Assembly: GCF_034313965.1 (NCBI RefSeq) | Contig: NZ_JAVIWQ010000002.1 | Location: 682,001 to 746,000 of the forward strand | Length of the DNA: 64,000 nucleotides | DNA from: Herbaspirillum sp. RTI4 | GTDB lineage: Bacteria; Pseudomonadota; Gammaproteobacteria; Burkholderiales; Burkholderiaceae_D | Direction: 5' to 3' | Shown: positions 43,497 to 47,330 of the stretch, in pieces | How positions within the stretch are numbered: position 1 is the first letter of the stretch | Layout: each line of letters starts with the position of its first letter | Program-made: the position numbers and the translations under genes | Notes under the pieces: model-generated | Seen by the model: only the letters and a program-made list of their open reading frames with translations | What the model was told of the DNA's origin: nothing | Databases searched by the model: none

Positions 43497-44168
43497 TTAA
43501 CGGAAAAAATTGCGTTGTAATTGCAGTGATATTGCTAATGCTGTTGGTCTTTTTGGATTGATAGTAAAAAAATCCCTGCTTTCTATGAGATCAGAACGAT
43601 CTGCCAAAATAACCAGGATTTTCCCATTTTGCTTCGCAGAATCTTTGCCCCCCCACATTGCAAGAAATTGATGGCGGCTTAAATAACGATTCCCCAGAGA
43701 AGAATCTGCCAGCCAAACAGTATCTGCATTGATGCCGCGCACGACAGAAAAGTGGTCATCTCCACGGTATTTGAGATAAACGATGACAGGTATTTTGAGT
43801 TTTGTTAACTGCTCAAACGAGGCAGCGTAGCCCACAGCGCGAAAACCGAATTGAGGAACAGCGCGCTCCATGTCGTCAAAAGACGTGATTGAATTTCCTT
43901 TGTCAATAGCTTTCAATATGTCAAGTTCTGTAACTGTTTGCTGATAAAACTGATTGAGAATAGTTGCAATGGCTGACGAGCCGCACGAGTAATCAAAACT
44001 TTGCTTCACAACCCGAAAATCACGTAGCGTTTTCCAACTGCGGGTTGAGATTGCACCATTGGTACTAAGGGTATTGATGTGAGCAACTTCCATGCCCCAA
44101 ACAGCATATACATTGACCTGTAGTGCCAATGTTATTGCATGTATCCAGATTTTTTTTGTCAGGGGCAT
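43497..44168 (-). CDS. Stand-alone exported C39 (double-glycine) peptidase
   Basis: C39 peptidases cut leader peptides after a Gly-Gly-type motif and are usually fused to ABC exporters. This 223-residue protein has only the peptidase domain behind a signal peptide (KKIWIHAITLALQVNVYAVWG). The triad is complete: oxyanion Gln56, Cys62 in QSFDYSCGSSAIAT, His139 in RGDDHFSVVRG and Asp155 in WLADSSLGN. No ATPase or exporter is attached, so it should act in the periplasm, as FapD does in the Fap amyloid system. The frame extends 17 codons to a TTG, but the ATG gives a better signal. Downstream in an AT-rich four-gene cassette. Confidence 0.9.
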   Translation of the reverse strand: MPLTKKIWIHAITLALQVNVYAVWGMEVAHINTLSTNGAISTRSWKTLRDFRVVKQSFDYSCGSSAIATILNQFYQQTVTELDILKAIDKGNSITSFDDMERAVPQFGFRAVGYAASFEQLTKLKIPVIVYLKYRGDDHFSVVRGINADTVWLADSSLGNRYLSRHQFLAMWGGKDSAKQNGKILVILADRSDLIESRDFFTINPKRPTALAISLQLQRNFFR

Positions 44169-44270
44169 GCAGACTTCATTAGCCCAATAAACGTCTTTTG
44201 AAAAGATATTTTTGGACAATATTCATGCCATTCGATAGCGTCAAATTAGATGCAACTGAATCGCAATACA

Positions 44271-44528
44271 TTACCGTTTAACCATAGTATTTTTAATTGA
44301 GTAAATTATTATTCCAAGCGCAACGACAATTACGCCACTTATAAAGCCGCGAAGCAAGCGATGCAATAATTCAAAATCCATATTAAATAAATGTAAAATC
44401 ATAAAAAACAACACTATCGCAGCCAATTTTACGTAAAAAAATTTGGATTTTCTAAATTTTGGGATCAAATAAAAAGAACTATAAACGATAGAAAAACTAT
44501 TAATCATTAAAAACGTAGTGTGATTCAT
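44271..44528 (-). CDS. Small membrane protein of the C39 cassette
   Basis: The 85-residue product is very hydrophobic, with two clear membrane segments (FFYVKLAAIVLFFMILHLF and ISGVIVVALGIIIYSI) and possibly a third at the start (FLMINSFSIVYSSFYLIP), joined by basic loops. It is not recognised. It lies between the peptide precursor gene (187 bases upstream) and the C39 peptidase gene (102 bases downstream) on the same strand. A role as an immunity or accessory membrane protein is only a guess from position. The base composition is strongly AT-rich like its neighbours. Confidence 0.6.
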   Translation of the reverse strand: MNHTTFLMINSFSIVYSSFYLIPKFRKSKFFYVKLAAIVLFFMILHLFNMDFELLHRLLRGFISGVIVVALGIIIYSIKNTMVKR

Positions 44529-44715
44529 AATTCAAAAATTTAAAATTAACTAGAATTTTATAATCGAATTTAATTATCCAATATCTACATTAAAAATAAT
44601 ATAGATATTCATTGGGTAACTATTTTCAACTAAAACAATGATCAATATTTTTCGGGGAAATCGGGTGCTATATCTTCATCGCGCCTAAATTAAAGAAATC
44701 TCCTGAAATATTTTT

Positions 44716-45072
44716 TTATCTTCTAATTAGCCCGGCATATGCCTGACCAAATGTACTAACCATTGCGCCGGGAAATCCAAACCCTCCAAACGCCCCAGTT
44801 CCAGCGGAAATTGCGAAGCCTCCCCAATTAGGGTTGCTTGTTGTAAGTAAATATCCAGTCCCTCCAGCGATTGCCCCAATAATAGGGACAGGGAAAAATG
44901 CTCCTTCTGTTTCTTCCATTTCTGTCTGGGAAAGGCGCGCTAATTCCAGAGGATTACTATCCATATTGAATATTTTCTGCGCATCATCAAGCGGCGCAGT
45001 GGATTCTTGCTTTGCCATTGCGGGCATGATCGCGATAGTACTCAAAGTTATTGCCAGAACAAGCTTCTTCAT
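44716..45072 (-). CDS. Glycine-rich secreted peptide precursor with Sec signal plus double-glycine-type leader
   Basis: The 118-residue product has a Sec signal (1-20, cut expected after AMA), a polar spacer (21-41) and then ELARLSQTEMEETEGA at 43-58. This second part matches the double-glycine leader pattern (LSxxEM-x2-T-x-GG) with Gly-Ala at the cut site. The expected mature part (59-118) starts FFPVP and has 14 glycines in 60 residues, with GxxxG spacings, hydrophobic stretches and a basic end (LIRR), like pore-forming or amyloid-like peptides. AAGGA precedes the ATG, which overlaps the barrel gene stop by 4 bases. Cutting by the downstream C39 peptidase is inferred. Confidence 0.8.
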   Translation of the reverse strand: MKKLVLAITLSTIAIMPAMAKQESTAPLDDAQKIFNMDSNPLELARLSQTEMEETEGAFFPVPIIGAIAGGTGYLLTTSNPNWGGFAISAGTGAFGGFGFPGAMVSTFGQAYAGLIRR

Positions 45073-46007
45073 GTTGCATTTCCTTTTTTAAGGGTGGGTT
45101 GGGAAGTGGGAATGGGTGTCTTATCAAAAGCGTGTAATAAATTAATGCGAGCACTTGATCCACTACTGCCAGATGCATTCGTGGTCACCGAGAATGCTAA
45201 GCTGGTTGTATCAGAGAGTCCGTAAGCAACGCCGAAAATAAGATCTGTTGTAGTGCGGCGAAAGCTCTGCGATGATCCATTGATACGATCCGGCTGTCGA
45301 TTCAGCCATTGAGCGCCACCTGTGAGCGTTATGCGATCATTTACAGCAAAGGCGAGTGATGGATTAAGCAGTAAGAAATTTCCAGGTTTATAACGTTGCG
45401 TATCATTTATACGCTCTTGATTGAATCGATATGCCGCTGTGAAAGAAAGAACAACGGGGTCTATTACGCTGTAACTTGTGGCTCCAAGCATCCATGATTT
45501 GGCCTTTGAACTATTTTCTTTTAATCGTTCGACCACGGCGACTTCGACAAATCCTAGTAAGGCAGGCGTTTCACCATCTTTTAAAAAGCGATAATTCAGA
45601 CCTAGCCAAATATCTGAGAAATAATTGCTTTGGTTGCTCGATGTTTCGGAAAAATGAGTGGAGCGACTGCCATTCCACAAATAACTACTGCGTCCGTATA
45701 GTTCAGTGTTTTTTGTTAATCCATAACGTAGCCCAAGTGTCGCAACACTGATATCTGTGTCGGTTCTTGTCTCGCCGACGCGTGTAGGGATGGCAGTGAA
45801 TGATGTTGGAGCAGTCTGGACAATGAGCGGAGATCCGATTGCTACGCCTTGTTGATTTCTGTTTGCGTAGGAAAAAGTCGCATCTAGCGTCACCTGACCT
45901 TTGTCAGTCATTAAATCTTCAATGTGTAATGGAATCTCTGCCAATGCAGATGGCATTCCACCGCGAAGGATTAATAAAGTAATTAATTTTTTCGATATGA
46001 TTTTCAT
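45069..46007 (-). CDS. Outer-membrane beta-barrel protein (MetA/FapF-type 'transporter')
   Basis: The 312-residue product has a signal peptide (1-23, ending ALA) and a body of alternating polar/hydrophobic strands broken by loops rich in Asn, Ser and Thr (TLDATFSYANRN, VATLGLRYGLTKNTELYGRSSYLW, DIWLGLNYRFLKDG). The start after the signal (LMTDKGQVTLD) recalls the 'MetA-pathway of phenol degradation' barrel family, to which I recall the amyloid secretion pore FapF being related. Its stop overlaps the peptide precursor start, so the two are made together. Export of the peptide through this barrel is an inference. First gene of the cassette. Confidence 0.8.
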   Translation of the reverse strand: MKIISKKLITLLILRGGMPSALAEIPLHIEDLMTDKGQVTLDATFSYANRNQQGVAIGSPLIVQTAPTSFTAIPTRVGETRTDTDISVATLGLRYGLTKNTELYGRSSYLWNGSRSTHFSETSSNQSNYFSDIWLGLNYRFLKDGETPALLGFVEVAVVERLKENSSKAKSWMLGATSYSVIDPVVLSFTAAYRFNQERINDTQRYKPGNFLLLNPSLAFAVNDRITLTGGAQWLNRQPDRINGSSQSFRRTTTDLIFGVAYGLSDTTSLAFSVTTNASGSSGSSARINLLHAFDKTPIPTSQPTLKKGNAT

Positions 46008-46536: not shown

Positions 46537-46983
46537 ATGCAAGGCATGACACTTGAGCAGCTACGCGCTACGACCAGCGCCGGCGGCGTTGTCAGCGTGA
46601 CCTTGAAAGGACAAGGCAGCGGGTTCTTCATGGAGATTGCTACCCGCAGCGGAAAAGACGCTTTTTTGGTGAAGGCCCGTAGCACTGAGCCGCGCCGCTT
46701 CGGCAGTCCGAATTCCGCGCTGATGGTGTTGCGTGATCTTGGCATTGTCGTTGCCCAGATCGACGCAAGCAACTGGGACCCCGACCAAAAAGAAGTTACG
46801 CATAATCGGAGTAGCCGCGCACAGGCGATGCGCCAAGCGCACGAAGCGGTCGCCTATAACCAGTCGCTGGCCGCCGAGATTCAGGAGGCGATTGACGATC
46901 CGCGGCCGAGCGTGCCGCACGATGAGGTGATGGCCCGGATGGATGCTCGCATTGCTCGCCACAAAGTAGCGGGAGCGAAGTAA
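46537..46983 (+). CDS. Antitoxin of a ParE-type module, with extra N-terminal domain
   Basis: The 148-residue product has two parts. The N-terminal 80 residues (MTLEQLRATTSAGGVVSVTLKG, FFMEIATRSGKDAFLVKAR, RRFGSPNSALMVLRDLGIVVAQID) look like a small beta-rich or regulator-like domain. The C-terminal part (AEIQEAIDDPRPSVPHDEVMARMDARIARHK) matches the toxin-neutralising tail of PaaA2/ParD-like antitoxins. The toxin gene follows after 38 bases. The antitoxin is longer than usual (about 80 residues), suggesting a fused DNA-binding or regulatory part. GAGGAGAGG precedes the start. Confidence 0.78.
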   Translation: MQGMTLEQLRATTSAGGVVSVTLKGQGSGFFMEIATRSGKDAFLVKARSTEPRRFGSPNSALMVLRDLGIVVAQIDASNWDPDQKEVTHNRSSRAQAMRQAHEAVAYNQSLAAEIQEAIDDPRPSVPHDEVMARMDARIARHKVAGAK

Positions 46984-47021
46984 ACGTGATCCAGCAGCCG
47001 TATAAGCTAGCCGCCTGACTC

Positions 47022-47330
47022 ATGGCAAAGACAAACTCCCCTTACCGCATCGTCTGGCGACCGATCGCCGAATCCGACTTAGACGACATCATTGACTACA
47101 TCGCTCAGGACAACCCTTTTAGAGCAGGGACGTTCGGCCAGGAGCTGCGTGACAAGACCTTGTCGCTTGCGCAACATCCTGAGCTTGGCCGCGCAGGCAG
47201 GCCGGGCCTGCCCGCTTTTCTGCGCGAGTTGGTCGTACATCGTAACTACATCGTTTTTTATCGCGTGCTGGCTAAAATACACACTGTTGAGATATTGAGA
47301 GTAAGGCACGTGGCGCAACAAACGTTGTGA
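47022..47330 (+). CDS. ParE/RelE-superfamily toxin
   Basis: The 102-residue product has the ParE toxin fold pattern: YRIVWRPIAESDLDDIIDYIAQDNP, the helix pair LRDKTLSLAQHPELGRAGRPG, then LRELVVHRNYIVFYRVL and VEILRVRHVAQQ. ParE toxins poison DNA gyrase, whereas RelE relatives cut mRNA on the ribosome; the sequence favours ParE because catalytic RelE residues are not evident. It follows its antitoxin directly. The pair probably stabilises the accessory stretch between the mscS gene and the efflux operon. Confidence 0.88.
   Translation: MAKTNSPYRIVWRPIAESDLDDIIDYIAQDNPFRAGTFGQELRDKTLSLAQHPELGRAGRPGLPAFLRELVVHRNYIVFYRVLAKIHTVEILRVRHVAQQTL

Follow-up and report, generated by a model that had tools for sequence, protein, structure and literature searches.

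At positions 43497 to 46007 of a 64,000-nucleotide stretch of the Herbaspirillum sp. RTI4 genome (contig NZ_JAVIWQ010000002.1, positions 682,001 to 746,000; hereafter the window) lies a cassette of four minus-strand open reading frames (ORFs), all of them open and intact in the ORF list of the window. In the direction of transcription they encode an outer-membrane barrel, a precursor peptide, a small membrane protein and a C39 peptidase; the barrel and the peptidase resemble NapF and NapP of the Neisseria nap island, and the barrel is predicted to share the fold of FapF from the Fap amyloid system. The features are as follows.

45069..46007, minus strand: outer-membrane beta-barrel of 312 amino acids (aa), NapF-like, predicted FapF fold; proposed release channel
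44716..45072, minus strand: double-leader precursor peptide of 118 aa, with a Sec-like signal at about residues 1-20, a C39 leader and a mature Gly-rich core of 60 aa
44271..44528, minus strand: small membrane protein of 85 aa with two predicted transmembrane (TM) helices; proposed immunity protein
43497..44168, minus strand: stand-alone C39 peptidase, NapP-like, of 223 aa from the ATG at 44168 or 240 aa from a TTG at 44219; proposed periplasmic leader peptidase
45069..45072, minus strand: ATGA in the sequence, the 4-base overlap of barrel stop and peptide start

The cassette has a GC content of 40.2%, compared with 57.3% for the remainder of the window and 61.9% and 58.3% for the 3-kb flanks, and only four of 615 sliding segments of 2511 bp are as GC-poor, each of them overlapping the cassette. 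The ORF list holds no further minus-strand ORF of at least 40 aa in the gaps among the four genes. An earlier reading made from the letters of this DNA without database searches (the sequence-only reading) had described an AT-rich block of four minus-strand genes in which the barrel stop and the peptide start overlap by four bases, and both points are borne out by coordinates and composition. The ATGA overlap possibly reflects translational coupling of barrel and peptide; by coordinates, the same overlap is present in a Collimonas locus (L003, 3479-3482).

The peptidase matches the C39 family PF03412 (E 1.3e-20, 74 bits), which is the sole family above cut-off in the 240-aa protein; no transporter family reached its cut-off, and the enzyme was thus correctly described as having no ATP-binding cassette (ABC) transporter part. 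A C39-ABC fusion as in type I secretion or class II microcin export was rejected because PF03412 alone is above cut-off, and the C39 enzyme of the FilB pilus system was rejected as well (79.1 bits with the exception model at a cut-off of 475). Compared with the PDB, the C39 profile retrieves ABC transporters of bacteriocins (E 1.7e-9) and ComA through their peptidase domains. Residues Q73, C79, H156 and D172, numbered from the TTG start, are invariant in an alignment of the window protein with 21 relatives of 47-70% identity; the last three are the catalytic triad that had been proposed as Cys62, His139 and Asp155, numbered from the ATG at 44168. The enzyme is of the periplasmic type; the signal peptide attributed to it is the least clear of those judged, all signal peptides having been called by eye or by a simple rule rather than with a predictor.

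The precursor peptide has no Pfam, NCBIfam or PHROG family. Its C39 leader ends in LSQTEMEETEGA (residues 47-58) and is followed by FFPVP. A leader profile, seeded from matches to the window peptide and rebuilt once, singles out one of 574 ORFs in the window (E 2e-19, the runner-up being at E 1.9), which argues against a chance resemblance; as the window peptide is itself one of the seeds, its own rediscovery is by construction and independent support comes from the relatives. With the duplicates L117, L120 and L123 dropped, the profile has 94 matches in 91 ORFs (three ORFs were counted twice) in 71 of 91 loci, the window included. Counting back from the cut, Gly at -2 is present in 90 of the 94 matches, Met at -7 in 87, Thr at -4 in 85, Glu at -8 in 80 and Leu at -12 in 73, while position -1 is occupied by Ala in 70, Glu in 12 and Ser in four; we take this consensus to match the double-glycine leader pattern. 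A Sec-like signal precedes the leader in 74 of 81 peptides judged. Across the 80 oriented loci, every one of the 80 leader matches is on the same strand as the C39 gene. The double-leader peptide proposed from the window alone is a recurrent arrangement. Around other stand-alone C39 enzymes (16 loci, with short flanks), no leader was found at E < 1. The mature core of the window peptide is Gly-rich, with a net charge of +2 and a grand average of hydropathy (GRAVY) of 0.62, and clusters with 33 of 80 other cores under permissive conditions (single linkage, composition correction off), which may over-join Gly-rich cores.

In structure comparison the barrel is predicted to adopt the FapF fold, followed by COG4313 channels and autotransporters as next matches. 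Its first strand begins at precursor residue 39, leaving no space for the 81-residue periplasmic part of FapF; a FapF barrel complete with its N-terminal periplasmic coiled coil was therefore rejected, as the fold agrees but the coiled coil has no room.

A scan with the C39 profile, using one genome per species, confirmed 382 places encoding a relative, of which the best 80 were kept; their record titles name Beta-, Gamma- and Alphaproteobacteria, Helicobacter and Neisseria. A barrel was found at 63 of these 80 loci, a leader peptide at 62, both at 55 and the order barrel-peptide-C39 at 47; the arrangement of the window thus recurs across genomes. Where 4 kb or more precede the C39 gene (53 loci), a barrel is present at 47, a peptide at 43 and neither of them at three. 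Among 399 genomes of the same order as the window, a C39 match (E <= 1e-25) occurs in 44, a close C39 (E <= 6e-48) in 13 and the barrel (E <= 1e-15) in 12. Each of the 12 with a barrel also has a close C39, the two genes lying on one contig about 0.2-7 kb apart, which indicates that barrel and C39 peptidase travel together, although with a patchy distribution. A 6.3-kb mobilizable plasmid carries the peptide, the C39 gene and at least half a barrel. In the rest of the RTI4 genome (3.99 Mb, three contigs) there is one other C39 match, weak and within a 744-aa open frame; the peptide has no further copy there at E <= 1.

Judged by sequence comparison, the leader is constant and the mature part is swapped among relatives. 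Leader identity reaches 84% or more in 13 of 21 peptide pairs within single loci, and nine of these 13 have cores no closer than shuffled sequences. At L030, for example, 58 of 60 leader residues agree and the cores share 2%; leaders of 92-100% accompany cores of 22-25% at L114, and at L134 a leader identity of 89% accompanies a core identity of 11%. The other eight pairs comprise one at L115 (76%) and those at L075 and L076 (58-72%), all with less similar leaders, and three at L040 in which leader and core both differ. The same holds between loci: the peptide of Acinetobacter rongchengensis (L061) is identical to that of plasmid pTR11_4 (L133), likewise from Acinetobacter, at all 60 leader positions and shares 11% of its core (shuffled mean 15%), and with plasmid p12SAAs474 (L134) it shares 83% of the core and 48% of the leader. 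At L003, L030 and L115, three of 96 sequences scanned, a fragment of the barrel 3' end lies just ahead of an extra peptide gene, a pattern that marks recombination-borne modules, as in the orphan toxins of contact-dependent inhibition (CDI) and Rhs systems. Three peptides with similar leaders and different cores lie near barrel and C39 genes at each of L114, L115 and L075, the last from a Paracoccaceae metagenome assembly and with a core of the GFTRHGLNQ type; at L032, from a betaproteobacterial metagenome-assembled genome, two peptides with polar cores share the leader and part of the C-terminus and differ in the middle.

Many of the relatives' cores are Gly-rich and bacteriocin-like, as is that of the window. 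Others resemble nucleases: the L072 core matches HNH (PF01844, 39.1 bits, above cut-off) and has a DUF4265 neighbour, another core has a GIY-YIG match below cut-off (E 0.002), and a third shows, with a low Z in structure comparison, an RNase fold of the CdiA-CT/colicin E5/D/RelE type, so that a colicin E5/D/CdiA-type RNase is possible there.

The genes next to the peptides tend to follow the character of the cores. The neighbour was taken as the longest ORF starting just downstream, an automatic choice that is sometimes wrong and that was available for 71 of 81 peptides, and TM helices were assigned from a hydropathy window rather than with a predictor; peptides with an irregular residue at -1 and cores shorter than 30 aa (the first L003 peptide included) were omitted here and in the clustering and swap analyses. 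At least one TM helix is predicted in the downstream ORF for 39 of 45 peptides with a core GRAVY of 0 or above and for 11 of 26 with a lower one (Fisher p 1.3e-4, the peptides not being mutually independent). When each core cluster is represented by one peptide, a TM neighbour accompanies 14 of 16 hydrophobic and five of 11 polar cores (p 0.03; Spearman rho 0.52). This is the association that cognate immunity predicts, with membrane proteins against membrane-active peptides and soluble ones against nucleases, and the window, with its hydrophobic core and a neighbour with two TM helices, fits the trend. At several loci the C39 gene is directly preceded by a recurring membrane protein, about 185-200 aa long, in which 3-5 TM helices are predicted (L023:5294-5872, L028:665-1222, L033:5339-5917, L036:5269-5871, L080:5056-5640); it is possibly an accessory inner-membrane part, and the L023 copy, the only one scanned, has no Pfam match above cut-off.

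The cleavage of leaders by C39 domains follows the same logic in class II microcins and their C39-ABC exporters. There, however, the peptidase is part of the exporter, whereas the window precursor also has a Sec-like signal, the peptidase is free-standing and the cassette holds no ATPase or membrane-fusion partner. By sequence, the closest relative of the cassette is Nap and not Fap. The nap island, published in 2025, occurs in Neisseria gonorrhoeae, N. meningitidis and N. bergeri, encodes NapP, NapF, NapA-C, NapI, NapH and NapR and lies between genes for an RluA-type pseudouridine synthase and hisS (PMC11798529). One of our loci, L048 from N. bergeri, has the same two flanking genes and was therefore taken as the nap island of that species; the window peptidase is 52% identical to its C39 protein over 177 aa and the window barrel 48% identical to its barrel over 290 aa, which makes the two homologous to NapP and NapF. 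Both systems are low-GC inserts with a GG-type leader peptide between barrel and C39 gene. In contrast to nap, the window has one peptide, one 85-aa membrane protein and, as judged from minus-strand ORFs of at least 40 aa in the gaps, no extra genes for NapH or NapR, and its core of 60 aa is longer than the mature Naps of 16-36 aa (PMC11798529).

Fap had been named as a parallel to the cassette. A stand-alone C39 enzyme together with a FapF-fold barrel stands as a likeness, but FapD, although the best NCBIfam match of the peptidase, reaches 85.1 bits at a cut-off of 330, and the FapF coiled-coil domain is missing from the window barrel. Fap cargo has no canonical C39 sites, whereas the window cargo has one, and the substrate of the periplasmic FapD is described as unclear (PMC5557850). 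None of the eight local proteins scanned was named FapA, FapB, FapC or FapE; the search did not extend to the whole genome. The Cdz glycine-zipper bacteriocin system of Caulobacter, in which Gly-rich peptides leave by type I secretion and kill on contact, shares with the window a small Gly-rich peptide and a small inner-membrane protein for immunity, a candidate one in the window (PMC5380434); in contrast, the cassette has no ABC exporter part and the window core no GxxxG enrichment. A constant trafficking region joined to an exchanged C-terminal part, a trait of polymorphic toxin systems, is present at the family level. As in CDI and Rhs systems, the export part is constant, the toxin part swapped, an immunity candidate adjacent and partial fragments lie ahead of some extra modules; in contrast to them the proteins are very short, and the delivery systems listed in the available part of the source do not include a Sec/C39/barrel route (PMC3482391).

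We consider it likely that the cassette, a relative of the nap island, is a minimal unit for toxin export, from which a mature peptide is released and in which the 85-aa protein confers immunity. The precursor would cross the inner membrane via Sec and lose its signal peptide, the C39 enzyme would cut past Gly-Ala of the second leader in the periplasm, and the 60-residue peptide would exit through the FapF-fold barrel, to act most likely on the membrane of competitor bacteria or kin, while the 85-aa membrane protein would protect the producer. For Neisseria, NapP has been proposed to cleave in the periplasm and NapF to act in export (PMC11798529). Of the similar route put forward by the sequence-only reading, the succession of Sec, C39 and barrel is supported by the recurring gene order and the homology to nap, and the kinship to Fap is not. 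In relatives the same machinery would export other toxin-like domains, nuclease-like ones included, with adjacent immunity candidates, and the cassette probably belongs to a Sec/C39/FapF-like-barrel route by which polymorphic toxins, probably antibacterial ones, are exported.

Several observations weigh against this interpretation. The barrel shares a predicted fold but no detectable sequence similarity with FapF, and such a fold is by itself no proof of protein export. A leader peptide was not recognised at 10 of the 53 well-flanked loci, three of which, gonococcal L055 included, also have no barrel, and one genome (G087) has a close C39 and no barrel. The 85-aa protein has, by sequence, a single detectable relative among the 80 loci (Solimicrobium, 36% over 66 aa), located between barrel and C39 gene. 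In the window core, no enzymatic domain was recognised with Pfam, NCBIfam or PHROG, and GxxxG motifs are not enriched (two compared with 2.9 in shuffles). Four of the 13 pairs with like leaders have cores closer than any shuffle (L051 65%, L059 44%, L032 32%, and L054 32% with only seven leader residues compared). In the HNH peptide of L072 (4774-5322), the best of the nuclease cases, a stop separates the signal-like stretch from the leader in that record, and the gene may be decayed or misassembled. Finally, mature gonococcal Naps inhibited none of the bacteria tested and promote autolysis of their own population in stationary phase, which is reduced without them, and NapC lyses red cells (PMC11798529).

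The findings on the gonococcal peptides, the closest characterised relatives, suggest an alternative with the same export route, in which the product would act in programmed lysis of, or signalling within, the producer's own population and the small gene would tune self-lysis. We regard this as unlikely, since nuclease-like cores, exchanged cores and core-matched neighbours in relatives form the pattern of interbacterial toxins, and one cassette is carried by the 6.3-kb mobilizable plasmid. It is quite improbable that the C39 enzyme processes the peptide while the barrel has no part in its release and conducts solutes, the peptide leaving by another path such as vesicles or lysis: all 12 barrel genomes among the 399 of the order also have the close C39 on the same contig, and in the window the barrel and peptide genes overlap. 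The cargo had also been suspected to be amyloid-like, and with the FapF fold of the barrel and FapD as best named match of the peptidase, the Gly-rich peptide might be exported to form surface fibres as in Fap. This is very improbable, given the low FapD score, the missing coiled coil, cores that are often unrelated between relatives and sometimes nuclease-like, and the absence, by eye, of amyloid repeats in the core; the bacteriocin-like half of that earlier description agrees with the Gly-rich core. We therefore favor toxin export over self-lysis, amyloid formation and solute transport.

The cassette is bordered on the left by a DUF4142 gene and an MscS-family channel gene and on the right by a PaaA2-like antitoxin and ParE toxin pair (46537-47330, plus strand), beyond which lie genes that by eye resemble parts of resistance-nodulation-division efflux systems. 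On plasmid pTR11_4, a RelE/ParE-family toxin gene adjoins the C39 gene. Decay is visible at some loci: C39 gene and barrel are split into pieces in Neisseria iguanae (L065), the peptides of Helicobacter apodemus (L054) contain stops, and one of the 12 barrels in the order (G294, C57:13094-13933) has seven stops. A barrel-like ORF near a different class of stand-alone C39 enzyme (L107:2133-3191, E 1.6e-5) suggests that other C39/barrel pairs may exist. With our own profiles, the gonococcal records hold three C39 places and two barrel places, and L055 itself shows neither barrel nor leader; there is thus probably more than one such locus per gonococcal genome.

The idea of export was already published for Neisseria; what we add is how broadly it applies, that the leader stays constant while cores are exchanged, that nuclease-like cores occur and that cores are associated with their neighbours. 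Toxin-domain swapping is not described for nap in the available part of the source (PMC11798529). Neither the wider family nor core swapping is described in the titles and abstracts of the literature matches listed, which largely leave subscription papers and bioRxiv preprints uncovered. Whether pairs of the NapP/NapF type form a general export route of two proteins, apart from type I secretion and CDI/Rhs-type delivery, is a close call that we answer narrowly in the affirmative: they would release short polymorphic toxins (pore-like, HNH, GIY-YIG-like, colicin/CdiA-type RNases) behind an interchangeable Sec and double-glycine leader and would spread on plasmids and through recombination of toxin-immunity modules. 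Because a free-standing C39 enzyme related to FapD here adjoins an evident substrate, which is apparently exported by Sec and has a textbook C39 site, the specificity of the enzyme can be tested directly in a system of four genes. If the cassettes do export polymorphic toxins, they would represent a very compact protein-export route in diverse bacteria, the gonococcal autolysis peptides would join a wider family of exchangeable toxins, and the leader might serve to export further small proteins from Gram-negative cells.
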